The notes below the pieces were generated by a model. It did not search any database and had not been told where the DNA came from. It saw only the letters and a program-made list of their open reading frames with translations. A stretch of 11,425 nt of DNA, taken from assembly GCA_003644825.1 (NCBI GenBank), contig QNDJ01000018.1, positions 1 to 11,425 of the forward strand, read 5' to 3'. Both the position numbers and the translations under genes were made by a program. Each line of letters opens with the position of its first letter. Positions within the stretch are counted from its first letter, which is position 1. This DNA comes from B21-G16 sp003644825 [NCBI: Candidatus Zhuqueibacterota bacterium] (GTDB lineage Bacteria; SM23-31; B21-G16). Positions 517 to 11,309 of the stretch are shown piece by piece.

Positions 517-1002
517 TTATTTTTCTCTAATTGTCTTTTTTATTAGCTTAATGATTTCCGGGATTTTTCTGGCAATTTCTGGAGACAGTTCCATACCACT
601 TACGATTTCTTTCGGTTCAACCCCGATTATAGTTATATCTTTAAATGATTTACCGGTCCTTTCAACAATACTCAATGCCTCCATAAAACCAAGCTGATGG
701 AGGGAAATAGAAGCTACATCGCCGGATATAATATCTTCTGGTTTAAATTTATAGACCGTTCCAGGCTTACCCCCACCCTTAACAGCATCTATAACAATAA
801 GTTTTTCCACATTTCCAAGCATCTGCAACGCATCCAGAGTTGCAGTTCCTGCATCTATTAAACTTACATCTTCTGGAAGTGTTGTTTTTTCCAGTTCTCT
901 TATTATGTGAACTCCCACACCTTCGTCTTTAAGTAATAAATTACCAATTCCTATTATTACTATTCCAGAAGTAAGGTCCGGGAGTAAGCCATTACTGGTC
1001 AT
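517..1002 (-). CDS. [NiFe] hydrogenase maturation endopeptidase (HyaD/HybD/HycI family)
   Basis: This 161-residue cytoplasmic protease removes the C-terminal tail of the hydrogenase large subunit after nickel insertion, which lets the active site close. It begins the conserved fold with GIVIIGIGN (13-21) and DEGVGVH (26-32). The three nickel-sensing residues known from HybD appear as Glu27, Asp72 (in VIDAVKGG) and His102 (in SLHQLG), and the length is normal for the family. It starts 12 bases after the large-subunit stop, which fits its substrate being the preceding gene product. There is no clear Shine-Dalgarno sequence before the ATG and an in-frame stop lies immediately upstream. No earlier start is therefore possible, and translation probably depends on coupling to the upstream gene. 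Confidence 0.93.
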   Translation of the reverse strand: MTSNGLLPDLTSGIVIIGIGNLLLKDEGVGVHIIRELEKTTLPEDVSLIDAGTATLDALQMLGNVEKLIVIDAVKGGGKPGTVYKFKPEDIISGDVASISLHQLGFMEALSIVERTGKSFKDITIIGVEPKEIVSGMELSPEIARKIPEIIKLIKKTIREK

Positions 1003-1014
1003 TTATTACATAGA

Positions 1015-2571
1015 TTATAAAATTCTGAATTTACTTATCAATTCACCATCAGGATTAATCATATGCACAGCACAGGCAATGCATGGGTCAAAAGAACGAA
1101 CCACTCTGACAGCCTCAATTGGGTTCTTCGGGTCTTTAATTGGTGTTCCAATCAGTGCCTGCTCGATTGGTCCTTTCTGTCCCATATCATCTGTAGGACC
1201 GGCATTCCAGGTTGTCGGAACAACACATTGATACCTGTCAATCTTTTTATTTTTAATTGTAATCCAGTGACCAAGAGAACCTCTCGGTGCTTCTGTTAAT
1301 CCCATTCCTTTACCTTCTGCAGGGATTTCAAATTTATTATGAACAGGCTTGGATGGGTCAAGTTGCTTTACCCATTCTGCACATCGGTCTGCTACAACCT
1401 TACAATCAAATGCTCTGGCAGCGTGCCTCCCAAGAACAGAGAATAGTGCATTAATATCGGCATTAAAAATCTTCAGAGTCCCTTCTATCAGCTTTGAGAC
1501 ATTTTCGTTTTTACCACTTAAATGAGCTGTTACCATTCTTGCCAGAGGTCCAACCTCTACTACCTTTTTATCATAACGAGGTGCTTTAATCCAGGAATAA
1601 GAACCAGGTTTTTCTGGTTGTGGAACTGTTTCACCTTTTGATGGATGGAGACCACTTCCTGAAGAAAACCTTGAGTTTTTAACATACTCTGCAATTTTAT
1701 CCGCTGAGAAAGGTTTTAGCTTGCCATCTATATATACACCTGGCGGAAGAAGTTTGTTGTTTCCATCTATATCTTCTTCAAAAACACCGTAAGAAAGGAA
1801 ATTACCACATCCTTTTCCGATTGAAAAATATTCTTTATACACTTTTGCAACCTCTATAACATCAGGAATGTAGTTATTATCAATAAAGGTTTGTAGTTCT
1901 TTTAATCTGGAAGCATAGGCGATAATTTTGTCAACTGTGGGTTTTTGTGTTGCTCCACCCGGCATTATTCCCATTTCGTGGGGCATTTTTCCGCCGAATA
2001 TACACAGCATTTCATGGGCTTTACTTCTCATTTCCAGAGCTTTCAGATAATCTGCAATAGCTGCAATGTTTAACTCTGTGTCTGTAATGTAATTTCCCTT
2101 ATATCGAGGAAGAAATGGAGCGGCAGCTGTAGTTCTTCCACTATCTACTTCAGATTTTACCCAGGCTTTTACCCTGTTCAGTTTCGGGTCTTTTCCTTTA
2201 TAATTAAGAATAGCTGTTATATCCACATAATCAAGTGCAGCAAGATGATAGAAATGGAGTATATGAGATTGAATGTAATTTGCTCCGAGCATCAGGTTTC
2301 TGATTAATCTACCGTTTTCCGGGGGTTTTACTCCAAGAGCACTATCAAGATTCAATGTCGAAGCCTGAGCATGGCTGGCCGGGCACACTCCACAAATCCT
2401 CTGGGTAATCATCTGGGCATCAACAGGATTCCTTCCTTTAAGAATTATCTCCCATCCTCTAAACATTTCTCCACTACTTTTTGCATCAACAACCTTACCA
2501 TTATCGACTTCAACTTCTATTTTGAGATGCCCTTCAATCCTGGTTATTGGATCTATGGTGATTTTTTGCAT
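1015..2571 (-). CDS. [NiFe] hydrogenase large (catalytic) subunit, group 1 type
   Basis: The 518-residue catalytic subunit carries the Ni-Fe site for reversible H2 oxidation. The four metal-binding cysteines are in RICGVCPASH (Cys60 and Cys63) and DPCIACAVH (Cys497 and Cys500). Position 497 is Cys, not selenocysteine, so this is not a [NiFeSe] enzyme. A 15-residue tail follows His503, which is the expected cleavage point for the protease encoded next. The N-terminal ITIDPITRIEGHLK is typical of the family. The start is well supported by a GGAG Shine-Dalgarno sequence 7 bases before the ATG. It has no signal peptide of its own and is expected to be co-exported with the Tat-bearing small subunit, whose stop lies 30 bases upstream. 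Length and partners fit periplasmic uptake (HynA/HybC-like) hydrogenases, and no cytochrome b subunit gene is adjacent. Confidence 0.96.
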   Translation of the reverse strand: MQKITIDPITRIEGHLKIEVEVDNGKVVDAKSSGEMFRGWEIILKGRNPVDAQMITQRICGVCPASHAQASTLNLDSALGVKPPENGRLIRNLMLGANYIQSHILHFYHLAALDYVDITAILNYKGKDPKLNRVKAWVKSEVDSGRTTAAAPFLPRYKGNYITDTELNIAAIADYLKALEMRSKAHEMLCIFGGKMPHEMGIMPGGATQKPTVDKIIAYASRLKELQTFIDNNYIPDVIEVAKVYKEYFSIGKGCGNFLSYGVFEEDIDGNNKLLPPGVYIDGKLKPFSADKIAEYVKNSRFSSGSGLHPSKGETVPQPEKPGSYSWIKAPRYDKKVVEVGPLARMVTAHLSGKNENVSKLIEGTLKIFNADINALFSVLGRHAARAFDCKVVADRCAEWVKQLDPSKPVHNKFEIPAEGKGMGLTEAPRGSLGHWITIKNKKIDRYQCVVPTTWNAGPTDDMGQKGPIEQALIGTPIKDPKNPIEAVRVVRSFDPCIACAVHMINPDGELISKFRIL

Positions 2572-2601: not shown

Positions 2602-3615
2602 TTACACAAGGTTTTTAACTTTCTTAATTTTTCCTGTCCATCTAATATCTTTCACCTTTGAAACAGGAAGAACTGAATAAAGCCCTTCACCTTCATGGTC
2701 TGGAAAAGTAGGCTCTGTACATCCAATACAGGGAGAACCACACTGAATGCACCAGTTAACTTTGTTATTCCAGCTTCTTATAGGGACATCACAATGAGAT
2801 ATTGGACCCTTACAGCCTAATTCAAATAAACATCCTTCATCATCTCCATAATCTTTTGCCATTTTACCTTCATCAAAGTATCCTCTTCTCTCGCACTGGT
2901 CGTGAACAAGTTTTCCAAAAAATAGTTTTGGGCGTTTTTCCTCATCAAGCTCAGGAACTCCGAAAAGTAATACATGTGCAATTGTTCCAACGACCCAATC
3001 AGGATGACAGGGACAACCGGGTATATTTATCACTGTAGCCTTTGGAATTATTTTATAAACCGGCATAGCTCCAGTAGGGTTTGGTGTTCCAGAAGGAATA
3101 CCTCCAAATGCAGCACACGTTCCTACACTTAATACTGCCTGAGCGTTTGCTCCAAGCCTTTCCACCCATTCCTTTGCGGTGATATGTTTTCCATTACTTT
3201 CTCCCATTGTAGAATAGATACCATTTTCTTTTGTTGGAATGGAGCCCTCCACAACAAGAACATATTTTCCTTTTTTATTTGTTTCAGCGTCTGTAAGTAT
3301 TTTCAGGGCGAGGTCACCCGCAGAAGCCATTATGTTGGGATGAAATTCCAGACTTATTGTTTCTGTAAGAACTTCGGCAATTTCGGGATAAACAGTGTTT
3401 ATCGTAGAAATTGAACAACCAGCACAGGATTGACCCTGTATCCATAAAACCGGAAGATTTCCAGCCTTAACTGCCTTCTCTTCAAGGGATTTCTTTACAG
3501 GTGCTACCCATTCTGAACCTCCAGTTTTTGAGGCACAGGCTGTAACTCCCGCCACACCAACAGTTACTGTTCCTCGGCCCATCAGCTCCAAAAACTCTCT
3601 ACGCGTAAGACCCAT
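2602..3615 (-). CDS. [NiFe] hydrogenase small (Fe-S) subunit with Tat signal and putative lipobox
   Basis: This 337-residue electron-transfer subunit passes electrons between the Ni-Fe site and a periplasmic acceptor. The N-terminus has a twin-arginine motif (TRREFLELMG, residues 4-13), a hydrophobic stretch, then VTAC ending at Cys27, which fits a lipoprotein signal. Proximal cluster ligands are Cys64 and Cys67 (QSCAGCS), Cys167 (SVGTCAAFGG) and Cys201 (PGCPCHPDW). The distal cluster has His238, Cys241, Cys262 and Cys268. The medial cluster region has Cys275, Cys296 and Cys299, plus Cys289 and Cys292 in NWCIQCGSPC. Many relatives have Pro where Cys289 stands, so the medial cluster is likely [4Fe-4S] rather than [3Fe-4S] (inference). 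There is no C-terminal membrane helix, unlike HyaA and HybO. The start is fixed by a strong AGGAGG five bases before the ATG. This is the first gene of the hydrogenase unit. Confidence 0.95.
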   Translation of the reverse strand: MGLTRREFLELMGRGTVTVGVAGVTACASKTGGSEWVAPVKKSLEEKAVKAGNLPVLWIQGQSCAGCSISTINTVYPEIAEVLTETISLEFHPNIMASAGDLALKILTDAETNKKGKYVLVVEGSIPTKENGIYSTMGESNGKHITAKEWVERLGANAQAVLSVGTCAAFGGIPSGTPNPTGAMPVYKIIPKATVINIPGCPCHPDWVVGTIAHVLLFGVPELDEEKRPKLFFGKLVHDQCERRGYFDEGKMAKDYGDDEGCLFELGCKGPISHCDVPIRSWNNKVNWCIQCGSPCIGCTEPTFPDHEGEGLYSVLPVSKVKDIRWTGKIKKVKNLV

Positions 3616-3934: not shown

Positions 3935-4480
3935 CTATTTCTTTTTTGGAACAGGATGAGCAATTTTCTTAAATGCTTCTTTAAAATCTTTTATTTCTAC
4001 ATAAGTGGGGCTTTTTTTATTATGACAATCTTTACACCGGTCCAGAGTTTTTATTCCACCATTAGCTAAAAACTTTTTTGTATCCTTCATTATGGTCATC
4101 TTTTTGTATACACTTCCCGGTCCATGACACGCTTCACAACCCACACCTTCTTCAATTTTGTAACTTGTAGCAAGGAGTTTTTTATCCTTTGTTCCGGCTG
4201 TAGTATGACATTCAAGACATTCCTTTGCTTTTTGAGGGTCTCCTTTTATTCCGAGTTTTTTTGCAATTTTTTTGCTTTCATCAGATGCCAGAGTTTCATA
4301 AGCTTTTGAATGTTTTTCTTTACTCCAGATTGCTGCCTGATTACCATACTTTTTTAATTTGTGACAGATGTTACACTTCTTAACTCCCACATACTTGTAA
4401 GTTTTCTTTGCCTGCTGAAAATTCAAAAATAGAAAAGATGCAAGTAAAAGACTTAAAAATAAGAACAAAAATTTTTTCAT
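3935..4480 (-). CDS. Tetraheme cytochrome c, c554-like, periplasmic
   Basis: This 181-residue secreted protein has a Lys-rich start and a hydrophobic signal segment (residues 4-20). It carries four CxxCH heme-attachment motifs: CNICH (36-40), CLECH (88-92), CEACH (115-119, followed by GPG) and CKDCH (149-153). His57 (KHSKAY) and His175 (IAHPVP) are candidate axial ligands. Spacing and the EGVGCEACHGPG segment resemble the cytochrome c554 family of tetraheme electron carriers. A soluble or loosely attached periplasmic carrier is the likely role. It follows rnfB by 43 bases and has a good GGAG seven bases before the ATG, so it probably belongs to the rnf transcript. It also faces the hydrogenase genes and is a plausible electron shuttle between the two enzymes, but that link is inferred only from position. 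Confidence 0.88.
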   Translation of the reverse strand: MKKFLFLFLSLLLASFLFLNFQQAKKTYKYVGVKKCNICHKLKKYGNQAAIWSKEKHSKAYETLASDESKKIAKKLGIKGDPQKAKECLECHTTAGTKDKKLLATSYKIEEGVGCEACHGPGSVYKKMTIMKDTKKFLANGGIKTLDRCKDCHNKKSPTYVEIKDFKEAFKKIAHPVPKKK

Positions 4481-4523: not shown

Positions 4524-6620
4524 TTAAGTTCCAGAAAGTTCCTTTTTTTCAGTTTTTTTCTTTTCTTTTACAGGATTTATATACGGATTATAACAATAGA
4601 TCCCGCATTGCAGGCATCTTCCGGCTTCATAAATTGCCTTTTCTTCAGGGATAGTTTCTTTCAATTCGTTGAAATTATCGAGTCTTTCCTCGGGTGGAAG
4701 TGTTTTTTCTTTTACTTTTTCGGATTTATCTACACCTTCGAGTTTTTCCAGTTGAGATTCAGGGATCAGGTCCTTCTGCCTTTTTATAACAGGAATATGC
4801 CCTTCAGTAAGCTTATAATGTATTGACCTGGCAGCAAACCTACCCTCAGATATAGCTTTGGTTGCAATATCAGGTCCGGTTCTGAAGTCTCCACCAGCAA
4901 ATACAAAAGGCTCGCTGGTCTCACCTGTTTCTTCGTCCACTATTATTGTTTGCCTTCTTGTCAATTTCAAATGTCCACTTCTTTCATCAGGTCGAACAAA
5001 AGAGGCATCAGGATGTTGACCAATAGTTAAAATTATAGAATCCGCATCAACAGTCATTCTCTCTGATGGGTCATACTTAGGGTTAAATCTACCCTCTTCA
5101 TCAAAAACAGAAGTACACCGCTGGAGCTCTATTCCCTTGATTCTACCATTATCGGTTATATACCTGTAGAATCCCCAGGAACAATTTATATTTACACCTT
5201 CTTCAATAGCCTCTTCTATTTCTTCATCAAGAGCTGGCATCTCACATCGTTTTTCGAGGCAGTATAACTTTATATTTTTAACTCCCATTCTAACAGCTGT
5301 TCTTGCAGCATCCATAGCTACATTACCACCACCTATAACTACAACTTTCTCTCCGAGGTCAAATTTCTCACCTTTTGAAGCACCCTCCAAAAACTTTGTT
5401 CCTAAATAAACACCATCAGGGCTTTCATCTTTTGTCAATGTGTAGCTTTCCCAGGCTCCAATAGAGATATACACAGCCTCGTATCCATTGGCAAAAAGAA
5501 ATTCAAGATTGAAATCTCTCCCTAATTTTACATTCTTTCTTGCCTCAATACCAAGTTTCAGTATTCCTTCGATTTCCCAATCCAGTATCTTTTTTGGTAA
5601 TCGGTACTCGGGGATTCCATACCTAAGCATTCCACCCAGTTTTGGTTCTGCCTCGAATATAGTTACAGTGTATCCCAATCTACGGAGATAATATGCACAG
5701 GATAAACCTGAAGGTCCACCACCTACAACAGCAACTTTATGACCATTATCTGGAAGAACAGGAACAGGAATCCTCTTATTATTAACATACTCGTAATCTG
5801 CACAGAATCTTTTTAAGGAATTAATAGCAACAGGTTCATCTATTAAATTACGCCGGCAAACTTCCTCACAGGGGCGAGGACAAACCCTGCCAATGGATAA
5901 GGGAAGTGGACATCTTTCTTTTATTGTTAATAATGCGCCCTCAATATCACCTTCTCTAATCTGTTTGATATATCTCGGAATATCGATATCCGAAGGACAC
6001 GCCTGTCTGCACGGAGATAAACATTCCTCTACTGTATTAAAATGTAAGATTCTATCCGAGGCAGATAGAAGTGAAATTATACCTCTGGGACATGCCTCTA
6101 CACATTTACCACAGGCTCGACATCTAGAAGGGTCAGTTATGGGAAGGTGATTTTTACCCATCCTGATAGCATCAAAAGGGCAAACATTCACACACGTTCC
6201 AAGGCCCAGACAACCAATTTCACAGATAAGGTCTCCTTTAAATAGTTTATCTGCTGCTCTACAATCTTCAACACCCTCATAAATGTACTTTCTTTCGGAA
6301 CGTTCGCCACCATTACAATAACTTTCCCAGATTTTTGGTTCAACAATGCCAACTTCCATTCCCATAATTCTACCAACATTATCGTGGATAGTTGGGCCAC
6401 CTGCTACACAGGCAGTTACTGGGGCTTCACCTTTGACAATAGCTTCAGCACAGGCTGCACATCCAGCATATCCACAGGCACCACAATTGGCACCAAGCAA
6501 TGCATCCTGAACTTCAAGAATTCGCTTATCTATTTTTACATAAAAGACCTTTGAGGCTATACCCAGAGCTATACCTACAAATATACCTAATCCGCCAAGA
6601 AATGCTAATGAATACCACAT
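4524..6620 (-). CDS. rnfB: RnfB fused to a GltD/NfnL-like NAD(P)H:ferredoxin-type flavoprotein
   Basis: At 698 residues this is more than twice the usual RnfB length. Residues 3-25 form a membrane anchor. Residues 44-73 are the RnfB Fe-S domain (Cys46, Cys49, Cys54, Cys71), followed by two ferredoxin-like clusters (Cys133/137/143/147 and Cys167/170/173/177). From about residue 195 it becomes a GltD/dihydropyrimidine-dehydrogenase-type domain. That domain has an N-terminal cysteine-rich Fe-S region (Cys200/204/208 and Cys247/251/255), an FAD site VVGGGPSG (298-305), a nucleotide site VVIGGGNVAMDAARTA (427-442), and a closing FAD motif GGDFRTGPDIATKAI (576-590). A final CLQCGIYC (669-676) may hold another metal site. 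There is no Met between residues 154 and 331, so the second half is not a separately started gene. The start has AAGGA at good spacing. Known RnfB receives ferredoxin electrons; here the fused part suggests direct exchange with NAD(P)H. Confidence 0.93.
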   Translation of the reverse strand: MWYSLAFLGGLGIFVGIALGIASKVFYVKIDKRILEVQDALLGANCGACGYAGCAACAEAIVKGEAPVTACVAGGPTIHDNVGRIMGMEVGIVEPKIWESYCNGGERSERKYIYEGVEDCRAADKLFKGDLICEIGCLGLGTCVNVCPFDAIRMGKNHLPITDPSRCRACGKCVEACPRGIISLLSASDRILHFNTVEECLSPCRQACPSDIDIPRYIKQIREGDIEGALLTIKERCPLPLSIGRVCPRPCEEVCRRNLIDEPVAINSLKRFCADYEYVNNKRIPVPVLPDNGHKVAVVGGGPSGLSCAYYLRRLGYTVTIFEAEPKLGGMLRYGIPEYRLPKKILDWEIEGILKLGIEARKNVKLGRDFNLEFLFANGYEAVYISIGAWESYTLTKDESPDGVYLGTKFLEGASKGEKFDLGEKVVVIGGGNVAMDAARTAVRMGVKNIKLYCLEKRCEMPALDEEIEEAIEEGVNINCSWGFYRYITDNGRIKGIELQRCTSVFDEEGRFNPKYDPSERMTVDADSIILTIGQHPDASFVRPDERSGHLKLTRRQTIIVDEETGETSEPFVFAGGDFRTGPDIATKAISEGRFAARSIHYKLTEGHIPVIKRQKDLIPESQLEKLEGVDKSEKVKEKTLPPEERLDNFNELKETIPEEKAIYEAGRCLQCGIYCYNPYINPVKEKKKTEKKELSGT

Positions 6621-6640: not shown

Positions 6641-7213
6641 CTAAGCCATACCCTTAAAACCTAAAAATGCCAGTGCCATTAATCCTACTGAAACCATTGC
6701 AATAGCAGTTCCTTTGAAGATTCTTGGAATATGACATATCTCATATCGTTCTCTTATACCGGAAAACAAGGTTATTGCTAAACCATAACCTACAGAACTA
6801 CTAAATGCAAAAATCGCTGTCTCTATAAAATTATAACTACTTCTTATACACAGAATAGCTACCCCAAGAACAGCACAGTTTGTGGTGATTAATGGCAAAA
6901 ATATTCCAAGTGCCTGGTATAGATTCTTCAAATTTTTTCTTACATAAAATTCCGTAAGTTGAACAAATCCCGCAATAACCAGTATAAAAACAACCGTTTG
7001 TAAATGAACAAGATTTAAAGGTTCAAGAAAAGCTTTTTGAAATATCCAGGTAACTATTGAAGACATAGTAAGAACAAAAACCACTGCCAGAGCCATACCA
7101 ATAGCGGAATCTCTTTTCTGGGAAACACCTAAGAATGGACAATTGCCAAGATATTTTGCCAGTATTATATTATTAACAAATATTGCAGAAACTATCATAA
7201 ATATGAATTTCAT
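6641..7213 (-). CDS. rnfA: RnfA, integral membrane subunit of the Rnf complex
   Basis: This 190-residue, very hydrophobic protein is predicted to have six membrane helices and has the usual length of RnfA/NqrE. RnfA and RnfE form a pseudo-symmetric pair that holds an iron-sulfur centre inside the membrane and carries electrons across it. The two conserved cysteines are present in the expected half-helix contexts: Cys25 in LGNCPFLG and Cys113 in TTNCAVLG. The motif NNIILAKYLG at the first helix is characteristic. AAGGAG lies 8 bases before the ATG, the rnfE stop is 16 bases upstream, and rnfB begins 20 bases downstream. RnfA and RnfE are homologous; this one is assigned as RnfA by NNIILAKYLGNC and by its position just before rnfB. 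Confidence 0.95.
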   Translation of the reverse strand: MKFIFMIVSAIFVNNIILAKYLGNCPFLGVSQKRDSAIGMALAVVFVLTMSSIVTWIFQKAFLEPLNLVHLQTVVFILVIAGFVQLTEFYVRKNLKNLYQALGIFLPLITTNCAVLGVAILCIRSSYNFIETAIFAFSSSVGYGLAITLFSGIRERYEICHIPRIFKGTAIAMVSVGLMALAFLGFKGMA

Positions 7214-7229: not shown

Positions 7230-7814
7230 CTACTTTTTAAAAACGTTCATTACCGCTAATAAAACACCAAGGCATATAAATGCTCCCGGAGCAATCACAA
7301 GAAATGAAAATGGCAGATATGATTTACCAAATACGCTCATTCCGAAAAAAGTTCCGGAACCGAGAATCTCCCTGATACTTGCAAGAACTGTCAATGAAAT
7401 AGTAAAACCAAGCCCGATTCCAAGACCATCCGCAAAAGAATAGATAACCGAATTCTTTGAAGCAAATGCCTCGGCTCGACCTAATATAATGCAATTAACA
7501 ACTATTAAAGGAATAAAAATACCAAGCTGTTCATAAAGCGTATAAAAATAAGCTTGAGTTACAAGCTCTACAATAACTACAAAGCTGGCAATTAGCACAA
7601 TATAGGAAGCAATTCTTACTTCTGACGGTATTATCTTCCTTAAAAAAGAAATTATTACATTAGAGCAAACAAGAACAAAAGCTGTAGCAAGCCCCATTCC
7701 CAGACCATTCTTTGCTGCGGAAGTAACCGCCAGAGTAGGGCATAACCCTAATACCAGCCTGAAAGGCGGTATATCTTTCCAGAATCCCTTGGTAAACTCA
7801 CTTATTACTCTCAT
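7230..7814 (-). CDS. rnfE: RnfE, integral membrane subunit of the Rnf complex
   Basis: This is a 194-residue membrane protein with about six helices, homologous to RnfA and NqrD. Conserved cysteines are Cys25 (LGLCPTLAV) and Cys108 (VVNCIILGRAEAFA), which with the RnfA pair would bind the intramembrane Fe-S centre. NCIILGRAEAFA is a hallmark of RnfE/NqrD. I chose the ATG at 7812-7814. A longer reading would need a TTG at 7833-7835 and adds seven non-conserved residues, whereas the ATG leads straight into VISEFTKGFWKDIPPF, the usual N-terminus, with GGAAA about 8 bases before it. With this start the gene overlaps rnfG by 17 bases, implying coupled translation. Confidence 0.94.
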   Translation of the reverse strand: MRVISEFTKGFWKDIPPFRLVLGLCPTLAVTSAAKNGLGMGLATAFVLVCSNVIISFLRKIIPSEVRIASYIVLIASFVVIVELVTQAYFYTLYEQLGIFIPLIVVNCIILGRAEAFASKNSVIYSFADGLGIGLGFTISLTVLASIREILGSGTFFGMSVFGKSYLPFSFLVIAPGAFICLGVLLAVMNVFKK

Positions 7815-8400
7815 AGCTTTTTTCCAGAGTTTCAATTATTTCTTTTTGATGATTACGAATTAACTGAGCAGCATTTTCAACTGCACTTACAATAGCAGTA
7901 CTTGAATAAGAAGCACCTGTCAAAACATCTATTTTGCCACCATCTTTCTTAAGTTTAAAACTTTCTTTATATGGTAATCCATAATATTGACTCAGGTAAG
8001 AGAATTCCAAAGCCCTTGCTCCAATACCTGGAGTTTCGTGATGTTCTGTAGCTGCAACACCAAGAATTGTAGAGTTCTCAAAGTTGAACCCTACCATAAG
8101 TTTAATGTCTCCTCCGAATCCACCGGGACCAATACTCTCGAAAGCAACAGCTATGCATTTCCCCCCTTTGAACCCGGGATAAAAAACATATTTAACACCA
8201 TCAAAGGTCATTTCTTTTTTTGTTGCAGCGGGGTCATTTTCCACATTCTTCATAATTTCCTTAATTGCAGGACCTCGAATATAAATGTCCTTTTGAGCTT
8301 CTATTCGGGTATTCAATGAATTTTTTAATGCTGTAAGAGAAGTCCCGGATAAACCTCCTATTACTCCTATTACAAGAACTATTTTTACCATTTTAGACAT
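7798..8400 (-). CDS. rnfG: RnfG, periplasmic flavin-carrying subunit of the Rnf complex
   Basis: This 200-residue protein has one N-terminal membrane helix (about 4-23) and a periplasmic FMN-binding domain. RnfG carries covalent FMN, attached by ApbE, and passes electrons on the outer face of the membrane. Family landmarks are EHHETPGIGARA (119-130) and the flavinylation motif DVLTGASYSS (158-167). The acceptor position is Ser164, where most relatives have Thr, and Ser is compatible with the known attachment chemistry. No apbE gene lies in this window. AAGGGA before the ATG supports the start. It overlaps the end of rnfD by 8 bases and the start of rnfE by 17. Its periplasmic position makes it the likeliest contact for the cytochromes encoded in the same operon (inference). 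Confidence 0.94.
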   Translation of the reverse strand: MSKMVKIVLVIGVIGGLSGTSLTALKNSLNTRIEAQKDIYIRGPAIKEIMKNVENDPAATKKEMTFDGVKYVFYPGFKGGKCIAVAFESIGPGGFGGDIKLMVGFNFENSTILGVAATEHHETPGIGARALEFSYLSQYYGLPYKESFKLKKDGGKIDVLTGASYSSTAIVSAVENAAQLIRNHQKEIIETLEKSYESNK

Positions 8401-9367
8401 TTAAATTCCCTTTCAAATAAGCAGGTTTTGAATAAATCTCATCTAAAAATGGGTTTGCAATATTCATTAAAAGTATTGCATATACTGCACCGTGTAAATT
8501 ACTTCCAAGTGAACGAATCAATATTGTAAATGCACCAGCAAAGAATCCGAAAATCAACATAGGGATCGGGTTCACCGGTGTTGATGATGTGTCTGTTACA
8601 AGGAAAAATGCAGCAAAAAAAGTCATACCTGCAAATAAATGGAAAAATGGACTAGGATATGCCTGGGAGTTTAATAGATGAAATAACTCTCCAGTAACAA
8701 GTATTCCCACTAAAAAACTAACCGGTTTATGCCAAGTTATATATCCACGGATGATTAAATATAATCCTCCGATTAAAATAAATAATCCCGCCGATGAACC
8801 AAGACCGCCCGCCTGTTTCCCAATAAAAAGATCCCATAAATTGTATAGATGACTACCAGCAGTACCTGCTGATTTTGACACACTCAAAGGGTCTATGGAT
8901 ATAAAACCTGTTTTAAAAAATTGTTGAGATGAGGTGTAATCAACTATTTTTGACCAGGATAATTGCATAATAGCAAAGCCTACAAGAACAGGATTCAAAG
9001 GGTAGCTACCATAACCACCAAATATCATCTTACCCAGTCCAACCATTACAAGAACACCCATAATAACAAGCCACCAGGGGGTGGATGGTGGCAACAACAA
9101 TGCCAGTAAAATACTTATGTATATACTATGAAGGTCAAAAATGCTTCCCTTGGTATGTAATAATCTTCTGAATATGATTTCAAAAATGACAGCAAAAACA
9201 ATTGATAATGCAAGTACCCGTGCAGCATTAAGATGATAGATAACAATAGAAAAAATTATTGCAGGTACCAGAGCAATAATGTGATTTCCCATCATTTTCG
9301 GTAAGGTTACTCCAGAATGCCAAAGAGGCTCCTGAGATATTAGTAGCCTTTTACTCTTCGAGTTCAT
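8393..9367 (-). CDS. rnfD: RnfD, membrane subunit of the Rnf complex, with an altered flavin site
   Basis: This is a 324-residue polytopic membrane protein homologous to NqrB. Family landmarks are GGYGSYPLNPVLVGFA (117-132), FFLVTDTSSTPVNP (254-267) and AVYAILLMNIANPFLDE (294-310). In studied RnfD/NqrB a Thr in a DxxTxAT-like motif carries covalent FMN. Here the corresponding stretch reads DPLSVSKSAGTAG (159-171), with Lys165 at the acceptor position, so the flavin may be missing or moved to Thr169. I chose the ATG at 9365-9367 because GGAG lies 7 bases upstream. A longer in-frame reading from 9400 adds 11 residues inside rnfC without a better ribosome site. The chosen start overlaps the rnfC end by 17 bases. 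Confidence 0.93.
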   Translation of the reverse strand: MNSKSKRLLISQEPLWHSGVTLPKMMGNHIIALVPAIIFSIVIYHLNAARVLALSIVFAVIFEIIFRRLLHTKGSIFDLHSIYISILLALLLPPSTPWWLVIMGVLVMVGLGKMIFGGYGSYPLNPVLVGFAIMQLSWSKIVDYTSSQQFFKTGFISIDPLSVSKSAGTAGSHLYNLWDLFIGKQAGGLGSSAGLFILIGGLYLIIRGYITWHKPVSFLVGILVTGELFHLLNSQAYPSPFFHLFAGMTFFAAFFLVTDTSSTPVNPIPMLIFGFFAGAFTILIRSLGSNLHGAVYAILLMNIANPFLDEIYSKPAYLKGNLNV

Positions 9368-10628
9368 TTTGTTTCTCCAAAGTTGCTTCATCCAGAGCAA
9401 ATTTTATATACTGAACTAATGGGCGATGTGCCGGGCAAACATAGCTGCATAAACCACACTTTATGCATGCACCAGCGCCCAGTTTAAGGGCTTCCTCAAA
9501 ATAGTAAAATTCACTCCGTCTGGTTATGAGATGAACCTGTAGATTCTCAGGACAAATCCGGGTACAGCTACCACAATTTATACAGGGGTAATTCTCTACA
9601 AATGATTTTTTTGTGTCCTTTTTTAGATATATACCATCAGAAAACATTGTTAAAGAAATATCAAGGTCAAACTGAGAAAAACCTTTCATTGGTCCACCGA
9701 TATTTACTCTTTCACCTTCTTCAACATTTATATTCAACGTTTTAAGGATATCTCTTATCGGTGTACCATAGAAAACTTCAATATATTTTGGGTTGTCCAT
9801 AAAATCGCTGAATACAGAAATCCGTTTTTTAATATTCGGGATTCTCAAATAAATTGCATTATAAACTGATAATAAATCTTCTGCTTTTATAACCACCATA
9901 CCATATTCTTTATATTTTTTCCAGGCAGGCCTTTTAAATCCGAGTAATCGATTAACAATGTAATGTTCGAGTCTATCAAGATAATTATAAGGGATGGATA
10001 AAACTTCTACATTATTCGGGAATTTTCCTTTTACCGAACTGTAGTCTGCTTCATCAACAGCTAAATAAATTTTTGCTACCGGGGCTAATATTTTTAGTAT
10101 ATTCAAAGATTTGATAATGGCATCATAATTATTTCTTAAACACATTCTGTTATTTATAAAACCTGGTTCTTCATCAACACAGTTTATAAGAACTTTCTTT
10201 ACGACATCGCCAGAAAGCTCGGAGTCAAAAGTCCAGGGTGTATTTACCCCGGTCGAAAGCAGTTGATTGATAATCTCGCTTGCTCTCTTTTCTGGTGGTT
10301 TATTACTGATAGGAACAGGAGAAGTTTCAACTTTTTCTACATTTAAAATAATTGCTGGTGTTTTTTCACCAAGGCTTGAAAATCTGTTTTCGATTCCTGA
10401 AATTTCTCCTGGAAGAGGAGCTCGCAGAGTAAAACCATTCTCGGTCCTCGCAATTATCTGCCCCGCTGAAACCTTTTCTCCCTGTTTTATAATGGGTTGA
10501 AAATCAAAAGAATCTCCATATTTCAGATTTATAATCAACTTCTCTACTTCAGGAGATTTTTCAAGAGGAATATCTTTTTTAATTTCTGGAAGTTTAATCT
10601 CTGCTTTTTTCAATTGTATAAGGTTCAT
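9351..10628 (-). CDS. rnfC: RnfC, peripheral Fe-S subunit of the Rnf complex, with degenerate NADH/FMN site
   Basis: This 425-residue soluble subunit sits on the cytoplasmic face and in known complexes oxidises or reduces NAD(H). The order of domains is normal: an N-terminal barrel-like part (about 30-100), a Rossmann-like Nuo51 region (about 115-300), GGPMKGFSQFDLD (311-323), and two [4Fe-4S] motifs, CINCGSCTRICP (349-360) and CIKCGLCSYVCP (388-399). The glycine-rich motif GxGGAxFP expected near residue 127 is instead STGVNTPWTF. The later YPxGxE motif is replaced by IPYNYLDRL (212-220). Fe-S transfer is therefore retained but FMN and NADH binding look lost. The ATG is 9 bases after the cytochrome stop with a weak GTGAG upstream. 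The family assignment is firm; the functional loss is inference. Confidence 0.92.
   Translation of the reverse strand: MNLIQLKKAEIKLPEIKKDIPLEKSPEVEKLIINLKYGDSFDFQPIIKQGEKVSAGQIIARTENGFTLRAPLPGEISGIENRFSSLGEKTPAIILNVEKVETSPVPISNKPPEKRASEIINQLLSTGVNTPWTFDSELSGDVVKKVLINCVDEEPGFINNRMCLRNNYDAIIKSLNILKILAPVAKIYLAVDEADYSSVKGKFPNNVEVLSIPYNYLDRLEHYIVNRLLGFKRPAWKKYKEYGMVVIKAEDLLSVYNAIYLRIPNIKKRISVFSDFMDNPKYIEVFYGTPIRDILKTLNINVEEGERVNIGGPMKGFSQFDLDISLTMFSDGIYLKKDTKKSFVENYPCINCGSCTRICPENLQVHLITRRSEFYYFEEALKLGAGACIKCGLCSYVCPAHRPLVQYIKFALDEATLEKQNELEE
9375..9378 (-). promoter_or_regulatory. Ribosome binding site that decides the rnfD start
   Basis: The minus strand reads GGAG here, followed by seven bases and ATG at 9367, an ideal arrangement inside the 3' end of rnfC. 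It favours the shorter rnfD over the in-frame ATG at 9400. Confidence 0.7.
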
Positions 10629-10637
10629 TGAATCATC

Positions 10638-11309
10638 TCACTTTAAATGACATGCACTACAACGGGTTTTTCCTGATTCTGTAAAATACGCAGGAAGGGT
10701 ATCTGCATGACAGGTAATACATTTTAAATGGTATAACCCGGTTTTACCTCTGGCCTGATGACATCCGCTACATTCGCTACCATGAATACTGAGTAAATCT
10801 TCGTGAGAAAAATCAGATGGATTTAGTTTTTCTTCATGACAGTTTGAGCATAACATTAATACCGGTTTTGCAGAACCCTGTTCGTGGCAGGTATTACAGG
10901 TTTTTGGTTTTATACTTCTATCCACACTATGACAGGTCGTACATTTTTTATGGATTTCTACAATATCATCGTGAGAAAAATCTTTTTCTGGCAGTTTTTT
11001 ACCGTTTTCCCAGGTTATTTTAGATTGATAAACCTGATCTTTAGAGTATTCATTTTCATGGCATTCACTGCATTCAAATTCCAGTGCTCCACTTATAAGT
11101 TCATGATGGCAACTACTGCAGGAAACATTCTTGCCAGATGTATGACGGTAATGGTCAAACATAACATTTCCAGCAACAATTGTGTAATAGTATCTAAAAG
11201 GGGGAGGAGGGGCTTCAGTTCCACTAAAAATATATCCTGCAATACCTGCTAATCCAATACAAACCAGAATCAATATAAAAATAGTATTATAGGTTTTACC
11301 AAACGTCAT
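10638..11309 (-). CDS. Octaheme cytochrome c, membrane-anchored, first gene of the rnf operon
   Basis: This 223-residue protein has an N-terminal hydrophobic helix (about 9-28) and a short proline-rich linker (APPPPF, 33-38). Eight CxxCH motifs follow, at Cys64, 80, 123, 138, 154, 180, 197 and 217. Heme spacing and scattered extra His residues (His53, 56, 113, 120, 169, 176) suggest bis-His hemes of the c3/c7 kind. An internal repeat is visible: FSHDDIVEIHKKC (111-123) and FSHEDLLSIHGSEC (167-180) precede the third and sixth hemes. It should be an electron wire on the periplasmic face, held by an uncleaved anchor. Cytochromes placed before rnfC are known in some sulfate reducers and, as MmcA, in Methanosarcina, where they exchange electrons with the Rnf complex. 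The ATG has GAGAG at suitable spacing. Confidence 0.9.
   Translation of the reverse strand: MTFGKTYNTIFILILVCIGLAGIAGYIFSGTEAPPPPFRYYYTIVAGNVMFDHYRHTSGKNVSCSSCHHELISGALEFECSECHENEYSKDQVYQSKITWENGKKLPEKDFSHDDIVEIHKKCTTCHSVDRSIKPKTCNTCHEQGSAKPVLMLCSNCHEEKLNPSDFSHEDLLSIHGSECSGCHQARGKTGLYHLKCITCHADTLPAYFTESGKTRCSACHLK

Follow-up and report, generated by a model that had tools for sequence, protein, structure and literature searches.

At which point would pyridine nucleotide meet an Rnf complex whose RnfB subunit carries a flavoprotein of its own, and where would the electrons go from there? The question is raised by a gene in the 11 425-nucleotide stretch of DNA analysed here (the window), in which rnfB is joined in frame to a GltD/StnC-like flavoprotein, giving a product of 698 aa. 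An earlier note on this DNA had proposed that pyridine nucleotide may feed or drain electrons directly at RnfB, merging an Nfn-like and an Rnf-like function in one polypeptide.

The fusion gene and its neighbours

The note's open frame of 698 codons, holding RnfB and then GltD-type parts, is real, and Pfam and NCBIfam agree on it; the strand, which the note did not give, is minus. Window 4524-6620 is a single intact frame of 698 codons and one stop, with an ATG start at 6620. Pfam finds, in order along the product, FeS (residues 43-72), 4Fe-4S motifs (137-183), Fer4_20 (202-279) and Pyr_redox_2 (295-593), while RnfB models of NCBIfam cover residues 4-191 and GltD-type models 197-677. The 4Fe-4S cluster cysteines of the RnfB half are complete (C133/137/143/147 and C167/170/173/177). 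No Met lies between C177, the last of these, and C200, as had been stated for the junction, and the C-terminal cysteine motif claimed at the same time is present as EAGRCLQCGIYC. The six cysteines from C200 to C255 and C669/C672/C676 are invariant in 10/10 aligned fusions. The solved NfnB chain carries the equivalent RCLQC motif at its N-terminus, which makes the GltD half a circular permutation.

Table 1. Features of the window, in the order of transcription
Feature	Coordinates	Strand	Basis
c-type cytochrome, eight CxxCH, first gene of cluster	10638..11309	minus	Pfam, motif count
rnfC without Gly-rich FMN/NADH loop, eight cluster cysteines kept	9351..10628	minus	NCBIfam, alignment, motif pattern
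rnfD, Asp replacing flavinylated Thr (C. tetanomorphum Thr153)	8393..9400	minus	NCBIfam, alignment, motif pattern
rnfG, flavinylation motif DVLTGAS kept	7798..8400	minus	NCBIfam, alignment, motif pattern
rnfE, both conserved intramembrane cysteines kept	7230..7835	minus	NCBIfam, alignment, tree
rnfA, both conserved intramembrane cysteines kept	6641..7213	minus	NCBIfam, alignment
rnfB::gltD fusion gene, 698 aa	4524..6620	minus	translation, Pfam, NCBIfam; full-length homologues in 11 other genomes
RnfB half, residues 1-195: TM anchor, FeS domain 43-72, two 4Fe-4S clusters	6036..6620	minus	Pfam, NCBIfam, alignments
GltD-type Fe-S domain, residues 200-279: C200/204/208, C247/251/255, Lys270 ligand position	5784..6023	minus	Pfam, alignments
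FAD/pyridine-nucleotide domain, residues 293-606, Arg340 conserved	4803..5744	minus	Pfam, alignments
Nucleotide-binding subdomain of other ancestry, residues 430-548, YCLEKRCEMPA replacing YRR..EMPA	4977..5333	minus	alignment, segment trees
C-terminal cysteine motif EAGRCLQCGIYC, residues 665-676; counterpart of NfnB N-terminal RCLQC	4593..4628	minus	alignments
Cytochrome c554-like protein, four CxxCH, directly after fusion gene	3935..4480	minus	Pfam, motif count
NiFeSe-family hydrogenase small subunit; Tat-type signal and lipobox-like Cys by eye	2602..3615	minus	Pfam, NCBIfam
NiFeSe-family hydrogenase large subunit; Cys instead of Sec at Ni-site motif by eye	1015..2571	minus	Pfam, NCBIfam
Hydrogenase maturation protease (HycI type)	517..1002	minus	Pfam

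All six Rnf subunits (RnfABCDGE) are encoded together in the window. Genes on the same strand follow in the order eight-haem cytochrome, rnfC, D, G, E, A, rnfB::gltD, four-haem cytochrome, hydrogenase small and large subunit, and protease. RnfA, RnfB and RnfE score above the TIGR cut-offs, RnfC, RnfD and RnfG below them. No homologue of the window hydrogenase was found in the sequence around other fused loci. The structure prediction reached a mean pLDDT of 42, and its model was left unused. Promoter-like matches stand at shuffle level (38 vs 38.7 in shuffles) and terminator-like matches above it (14 vs 7.6, sd 3.1); neither class is used as evidence.

The same genome holds a second, ordinary rnfCDGEA cluster with a loop-bearing RnfC, followed by tatC, on contig C145 (L076, 340-4609). 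No rnfB was found on that contig, nor a second rnfB elsewhere in this 84% complete genome. Since C145 starts ~340 bases before its rnfC, a second rnfB may be missing from the assembly; the fused RnfB might also serve both clusters. Across the fusion genomes, three hold an ordinary Rnf with a loop-bearing RnfC besides the fused one.

Authenticity and distribution of the fusion

A search of 59 other genomes, including five phylum mates, gave no further fusion and suggested one unique to the window, a view overturned by a survey of 386 genomes (the window's own included), which found it in six. A further survey of the phyla of the new matches found it in 2/8, 6/7, 2/5 and 1/2 genomes. The full-length fusion thus occurs in at least 12 of 398 different genomes, from five phylum-level groups, 12 being a lower bound because the 386-genome search scored the two best first-look candidates per genome. 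The other eleven proteins are 43-52% identical to that of the window; four of the twelve are near-copies (98-100% identical), and nine are clearly different. A scan of viral contigs gave no match, and one of genome contigs with poorly conserved peptides returned three ordinary RnfB only.

Since the assembly is fragmented (493 contigs, 84% complete), an assembly or frameshift artefact has to be considered, but we reject it as having next to no chance of being right. Homologues with the same full-length architecture, for which the earlier note had proposed a search, are present in 11 other genomes with the identical frame intact and no frameshift or stop at the junction, and purifying selection acts across it. 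The 46 alignment columns around the junction are gap-free in 12/12 fusions. For the 37 junction codons dN is 0 between close relatives (G124-G395, dS 0.09; G394-G395, dS 0.46), and 0.036 for G223-G388, where dS is saturated.

As far as the contigs show it, the fusion follows rnfCDGEA: nine loci display the whole order and two a part of it, while one contig is cut at the fusion. In a tree restricted to RnfE ORFs of at least 170 aa, which drops one fused locus (L142), the RnfE of ten fused loci, the window's among them, group in a single clade (support 100/99). The fused system thus probably arose once and then moved between phyla, as judged from this tree. Since fused RnfE is one clade, associations seen at fused loci amount to about one evolutionary event, and Fisher p values for motif associations were left unused because the fused rows share one ancestor.

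Changes in the other Rnf subunits

RnfC. The earlier note had asked whether the fusion co-occurs with an altered RnfC, and it does. The Gly-rich FMN/NADH loop (GxGG...P; GxGGAxFP) is absent in 9/9 fused loci with rnfC (seven clearly different sequences, as three of the nine are near-copies), and present in 46/46 other RnfC loci checked; an RnfC-like match occurs in 189 of the 386 genomes. Window RnfC scores 28.0 bits for Complex1_51K against a cut-off of 31.2, and has no SLBB match at E 0.001. Against a profile of fused RnfC, five of the six fusion genomes reach 499-634 bits while no other genome of the 386 exceeds 339 bits, a gap that is partly by construction, as the same sequences built the profile; the sixth genome's contig ends before rnfC. 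All 55 RnfC (9 fused and 46 other) retain the eight cluster cysteines, whose conservation in 9/9 fused loci suggests that electrons still pass through RnfC.

RnfD. In C. tetanomorphum, Thr153 of RnfD bears FMN (PMC9588780); the window has Asp in this column. By pattern search the flavinylation motif is found in 0/9 fused vs 32/40 other RnfD. The column holds Thr in 39 of the 40 others and Ser in one, so that the eight failing the pattern still have Thr or Ser. Four of the nine fused sequences carry Asp, Glu, Leu or Ala there, and five a Thr placed by MAFFT from sequence that is not motif-like; the RnfD evidence is alignment-dependent.

RnfG, RnfA and RnfE. The RnfG of 9/9 fused loci has the strict form of the flavinylation motif, D-x-x-[S/T]-G-A-[S/T] (PMC12052999). 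Of the 23 other RnfG, many of them truncated, two match this strict form and three a looser one; the aligned Thr is there in 17 and gapped in six. The RnfA and RnfE cysteines are kept in fused loci except in one truncated RnfE.

Before motifs were counted, L150, L158, L161 and L166 were dropped as repeats of loci; L116, L117, L122, L125, L130, L131 and L144-L148 were likewise not recounted, and subunit ORFs under 130 aa were dropped. The fusion, the losses, the retained motifs, the gene order and their conservation are read directly from the sequences.

Cytochromes and the proposed electron path

A protein with at least three CxxCH motifs lies beside rnf in 10/12 fused loci (the available sequence of the other two, L112 and L138, shows no cytochrome) vs 0/56 other rnf loci (26 of these 5 kb or longer); as these comparison loci were not picked to include known Desulfovibrio or Methanosarcina cases, loss of the RnfC loop is inseparable from the cytochrome link.

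Some cytochromes beside fused rnf genes are very rich in haem motifs: L113 12728-14344 has 22 CxxCH, L139 2294-4762 has 27 and L114 7294-8793 has 16. An MtrC/MtrF-like Pfam domain scores above the cut-off in that of L113 and below it in that of L139. These three proteins possibly serve extracellular electron transfer.

The published Rnf path runs through RnfB, RnfA/E, RnfG, RnfD and RnfC to NAD (PMC9588780). It is most likely that pyridine nucleotide goes in or out at RnfB, as the earlier note had proposed. We think it more probable than not, going by sequence, that the complex is a rewired Rnf2 of the Desulfobacula toluolica Tol2 type, acting as an NAD(P)H/ferredoxin:periplasmic cytochrome c oxidoreductase. 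The FAD of the fused GltD/StnC-like domain would exchange hydride with NAD(P)H; single electrons would pass over the two [4Fe-4S] clusters of the GltD part to the ferredoxin clusters of RnfB, and from RnfB through RnfA/E to the FMN of periplasmic RnfG. The ordinary return leg (RnfD FMN, RnfC FMN, NAD+) would be broken, and electrons would leave to, or come from, the adjacent multihaem cytochrome c. Since the flavin sites of RnfD and RnfC are apparently lost and the first part of the path is kept, RnfG to cytochrome would be the natural exit. In the window's genome the cytochromes may also connect to the neighbouring periplasmic hydrogenase. Cofactor occupancy, the path, its direction and any ion pumping are inferred. 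In D. alaskensis the cotranscribed cytochrome dhcA was reported as unimportant for fitness and rnf as important (PMC4215793), so adjacency of a cytochrome is no proof of electron flow.

Conservation of the eight RnfC cluster cysteines in 9/9 would also suit a return leg that works, with RnfC serving a partner other than NAD+, RnfB-GltD and RnfC both acting as cytoplasmic ports and the cytochrome as an accessory; the RnfC of Tol2 is said to need an acceptor or donor other than NAD (PMC5109826). We consider this arrangement unlikely: RnfD, the link from RnfG to RnfC (PMC9588780), is without its flavin-attachment motif in 9/9 fused loci, and no further redox partner was recognised there in a search with window-protein homologues and haem motifs.

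Alternatively, the GltD half could act as a tethered ferredoxin:NAD(P) reductase, one that would balance the ferredoxin and nucleotide pools at the membrane without passing electrons straight into the membrane part. Proteins with a ferredoxin motif and GltD but no RnfB are common (matches from query residues 153-165), and the RnfB cluster cysteines are kept. Such a tether is improbable: the junction has one and the same length in 12/12 fusions, the nucleotide site of RnfC is lost along with it and the gene keeps its place in the rnf operon, which together suggest an integrated port.

The flavoprotein half

The best solved relatives are 9bov, 9n5u and 8oh5_C, ahead of NfnB. With its 1172 residues and matching C114, K170 and R239, 8oh5_C is probably StnC, from the Stn transhydrogenase of Sporomusa. 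It shares with the window module a GltD-like NADPH/FAD make-up, a Lys at the proximal cluster, an Arg near FAD, a permuted C-terminal cysteine motif and a SIGRVCP/SIGKICP motif. StnC differs in its NuoG- and FdhF-like domains and its StnABC complex, whereas the window module sits on RnfB without such domains by Pfam and NCBIfam; the window protein also lacks the Arg-Arg of the YRR motif. The StnC Cys114 position is Ile or Val in the fusions, and the same change is reported in two StnC relatives (PMC10482914).

These residues bear on the second part of the earlier proposal, an Nfn-like function merged with Rnf. The fold family is common to NfnB, and Arg340 (counterpart of StnC Arg239 and NfnB Arg201) is conserved in 12/12 fusions, as would fit a domain that splits NADPH electrons between low-potential ferredoxin/RnfB and a higher-potential acceptor. 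Yet Lys270 occupies the ligand position of the FAD-proximal cluster in 12/12 fusions, a residue shared with StnC, whose FAD is reported to be non-bifurcating (PMC10482914), and the NfnB alignment has Glu there; an NfnA-like second flavin subunit is absent among the window proteins. Because the proximal cluster has the Lys of StnC and not the Glu of NfnB, the Nfn-like role is not favoured, and we give bifurcation a low probability.

A nucleotide-binding subdomain of probable other ancestry

The YRR...EMPA motif is found in 11/12 fusions, the window alone having YCLEKRCEMPA. Whole-domain GltD trees place the window outside the other fusions (AU p = 0.09), against one origin of all GltD halves. 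Three-segment trees indicate that the protein falls outside because it is a mosaic: window residues 198-425 and 552-677 fall among the other fusions (support 95/91 and 100/99), whereas residues 430-548 sit with GltD domains from other proteins, the nearest being L009, L106, L107, L013 and L011. A common clade of 430-548 with the fusions is rejected at AU p = 7.6e-11, which is not a blind test, as the segment limits were set after the identity table was seen. The smaller whole-domain trees and the segment trees leave out L140-L142 (near-copies of L113) and hold 20 and 18 of 47 non-fusion rows; the segment trees also leave out the long-branched L012 and L023. The 430-548 subdomain sets the window protein apart from the 11 other fusions compared.

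Among 50 GltD-type loci, 35 have YRR, nine have the window-like LE form and six were unread by the pattern. Arg-Arg in such folds binds the NADPH 2'-phosphate, and an acidic residue there favours NADH. The window enzyme probably prefers NADH, as judged from this motif.

GC3 is near-even along the fusion gene (0.24 to 0.30), which argues against a recent foreign insertion at 430-548, so the subdomain swap, if real, would be old.

L107 and L002 encode NuoG-type 2Fe-2S and 4Fe-4S domains. L009 601-4044 and L108 1-3384 are long flavoproteins, HdrA-like by eye and unnamed by Pfam, whose GltD-type domain has the CLE motif; they may be related to the HdrA-NfnB fusions that have been described from ANME-1 (PMC9012536).

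Relation to known systems

D. toluolica Tol2 is described as having a different type of Rnf, with an RnfB of ~700 aa with NAD-binding sites and an RnfC without NADH and ligand-binding domains (PMC5109826). The Rnf2 of D. multivorans is of this type and lies beside an ordinary Rnf1; five of its subunits were detected under all tested conditions, and its cytochrome in lactate-grown cells only (PMC5109826). One study describes Rnf2 as abundant and constitutive in each of its six Desulfobacteraceae strains and treats it as a sodium pump that links the NADH, ferredoxin and NADP pools (PMC11887813); its mode of action is said to await verification (PMC5109826).

By its architecture, which is known from genomes and proteomes, the window system belongs to this Tol2-type Rnf2 (D. 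toluolica Tol2, D. multivorans, D. autotrophicum HRM2). It shares with the published description of the type the ~700-aa RnfB with a nucleotide-binding domain, the RnfC without NADH-oxidoreductase and ligand-binding (SLBB) domains, the cytochrome gene in the cluster and the ordinary Rnf1 in the same genome (here on C145). It differs in an apparently different phylum-level group, the hydrogenase operon and the nucleotide subdomain of other ancestry. The RnfD change, the StnC-type ligand and occurrence in other phyla go unmentioned for Tol2-type Rnf2 in the parts available to us of PMC5109826 and PMC11887813, supplements excluded. The present analysis adds the other phyla, the RnfD change and the mosaic in the window protein.

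Other systems are more distant. Ordinary NAD-dependent Rnf differs from that of the window, in which RnfC is without the GxGGAxFP loop and RnfD without the covalent-FMN Thr. The Rnf of Methanosarcina acetivorans also has a multihaem cytochrome but takes ferredoxin as donor, and the part of its published description available to us mentions no GltD fusion. In Na+-NQR, NqrA (the RnfC homologue) is proposed to have lost its FMN and NAD sites when NqrF, a new NADH module, became the entry point for electrons (PMC4014512). The loss of a nucleotide site in the RnfC homologue alongside a new NADH module is the same; NqrF, though, is another flavoprotein that replaces RnfB, NqrA also lost its cluster cysteines, and the acceptor is ubiquinone.

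Implications

The signature of the fused loci predicts a reaction other than a link between NADH, ferredoxin and NADP pools, namely one of NAD(P)H or ferredoxin with periplasmic cytochrome c. A bolder reading, which we offer tentatively and think rather doubtful, is of a third redesign of the Rnf core beside Nqr and the methanogen Rnf, fed by NAD(P)H and emptying into cytochromes, that would use half of the U-shaped path across phyla and in which the window lineage would have swapped an NADPH for an NADH port. The fused complexes are also a natural experiment on the need for the RnfD flavin in ion pumping: if they pump ions without RnfD FMN, pumping cannot depend on it. That recombination can exchange the nucleotide port itself is suggested by the mosaic of the window protein.
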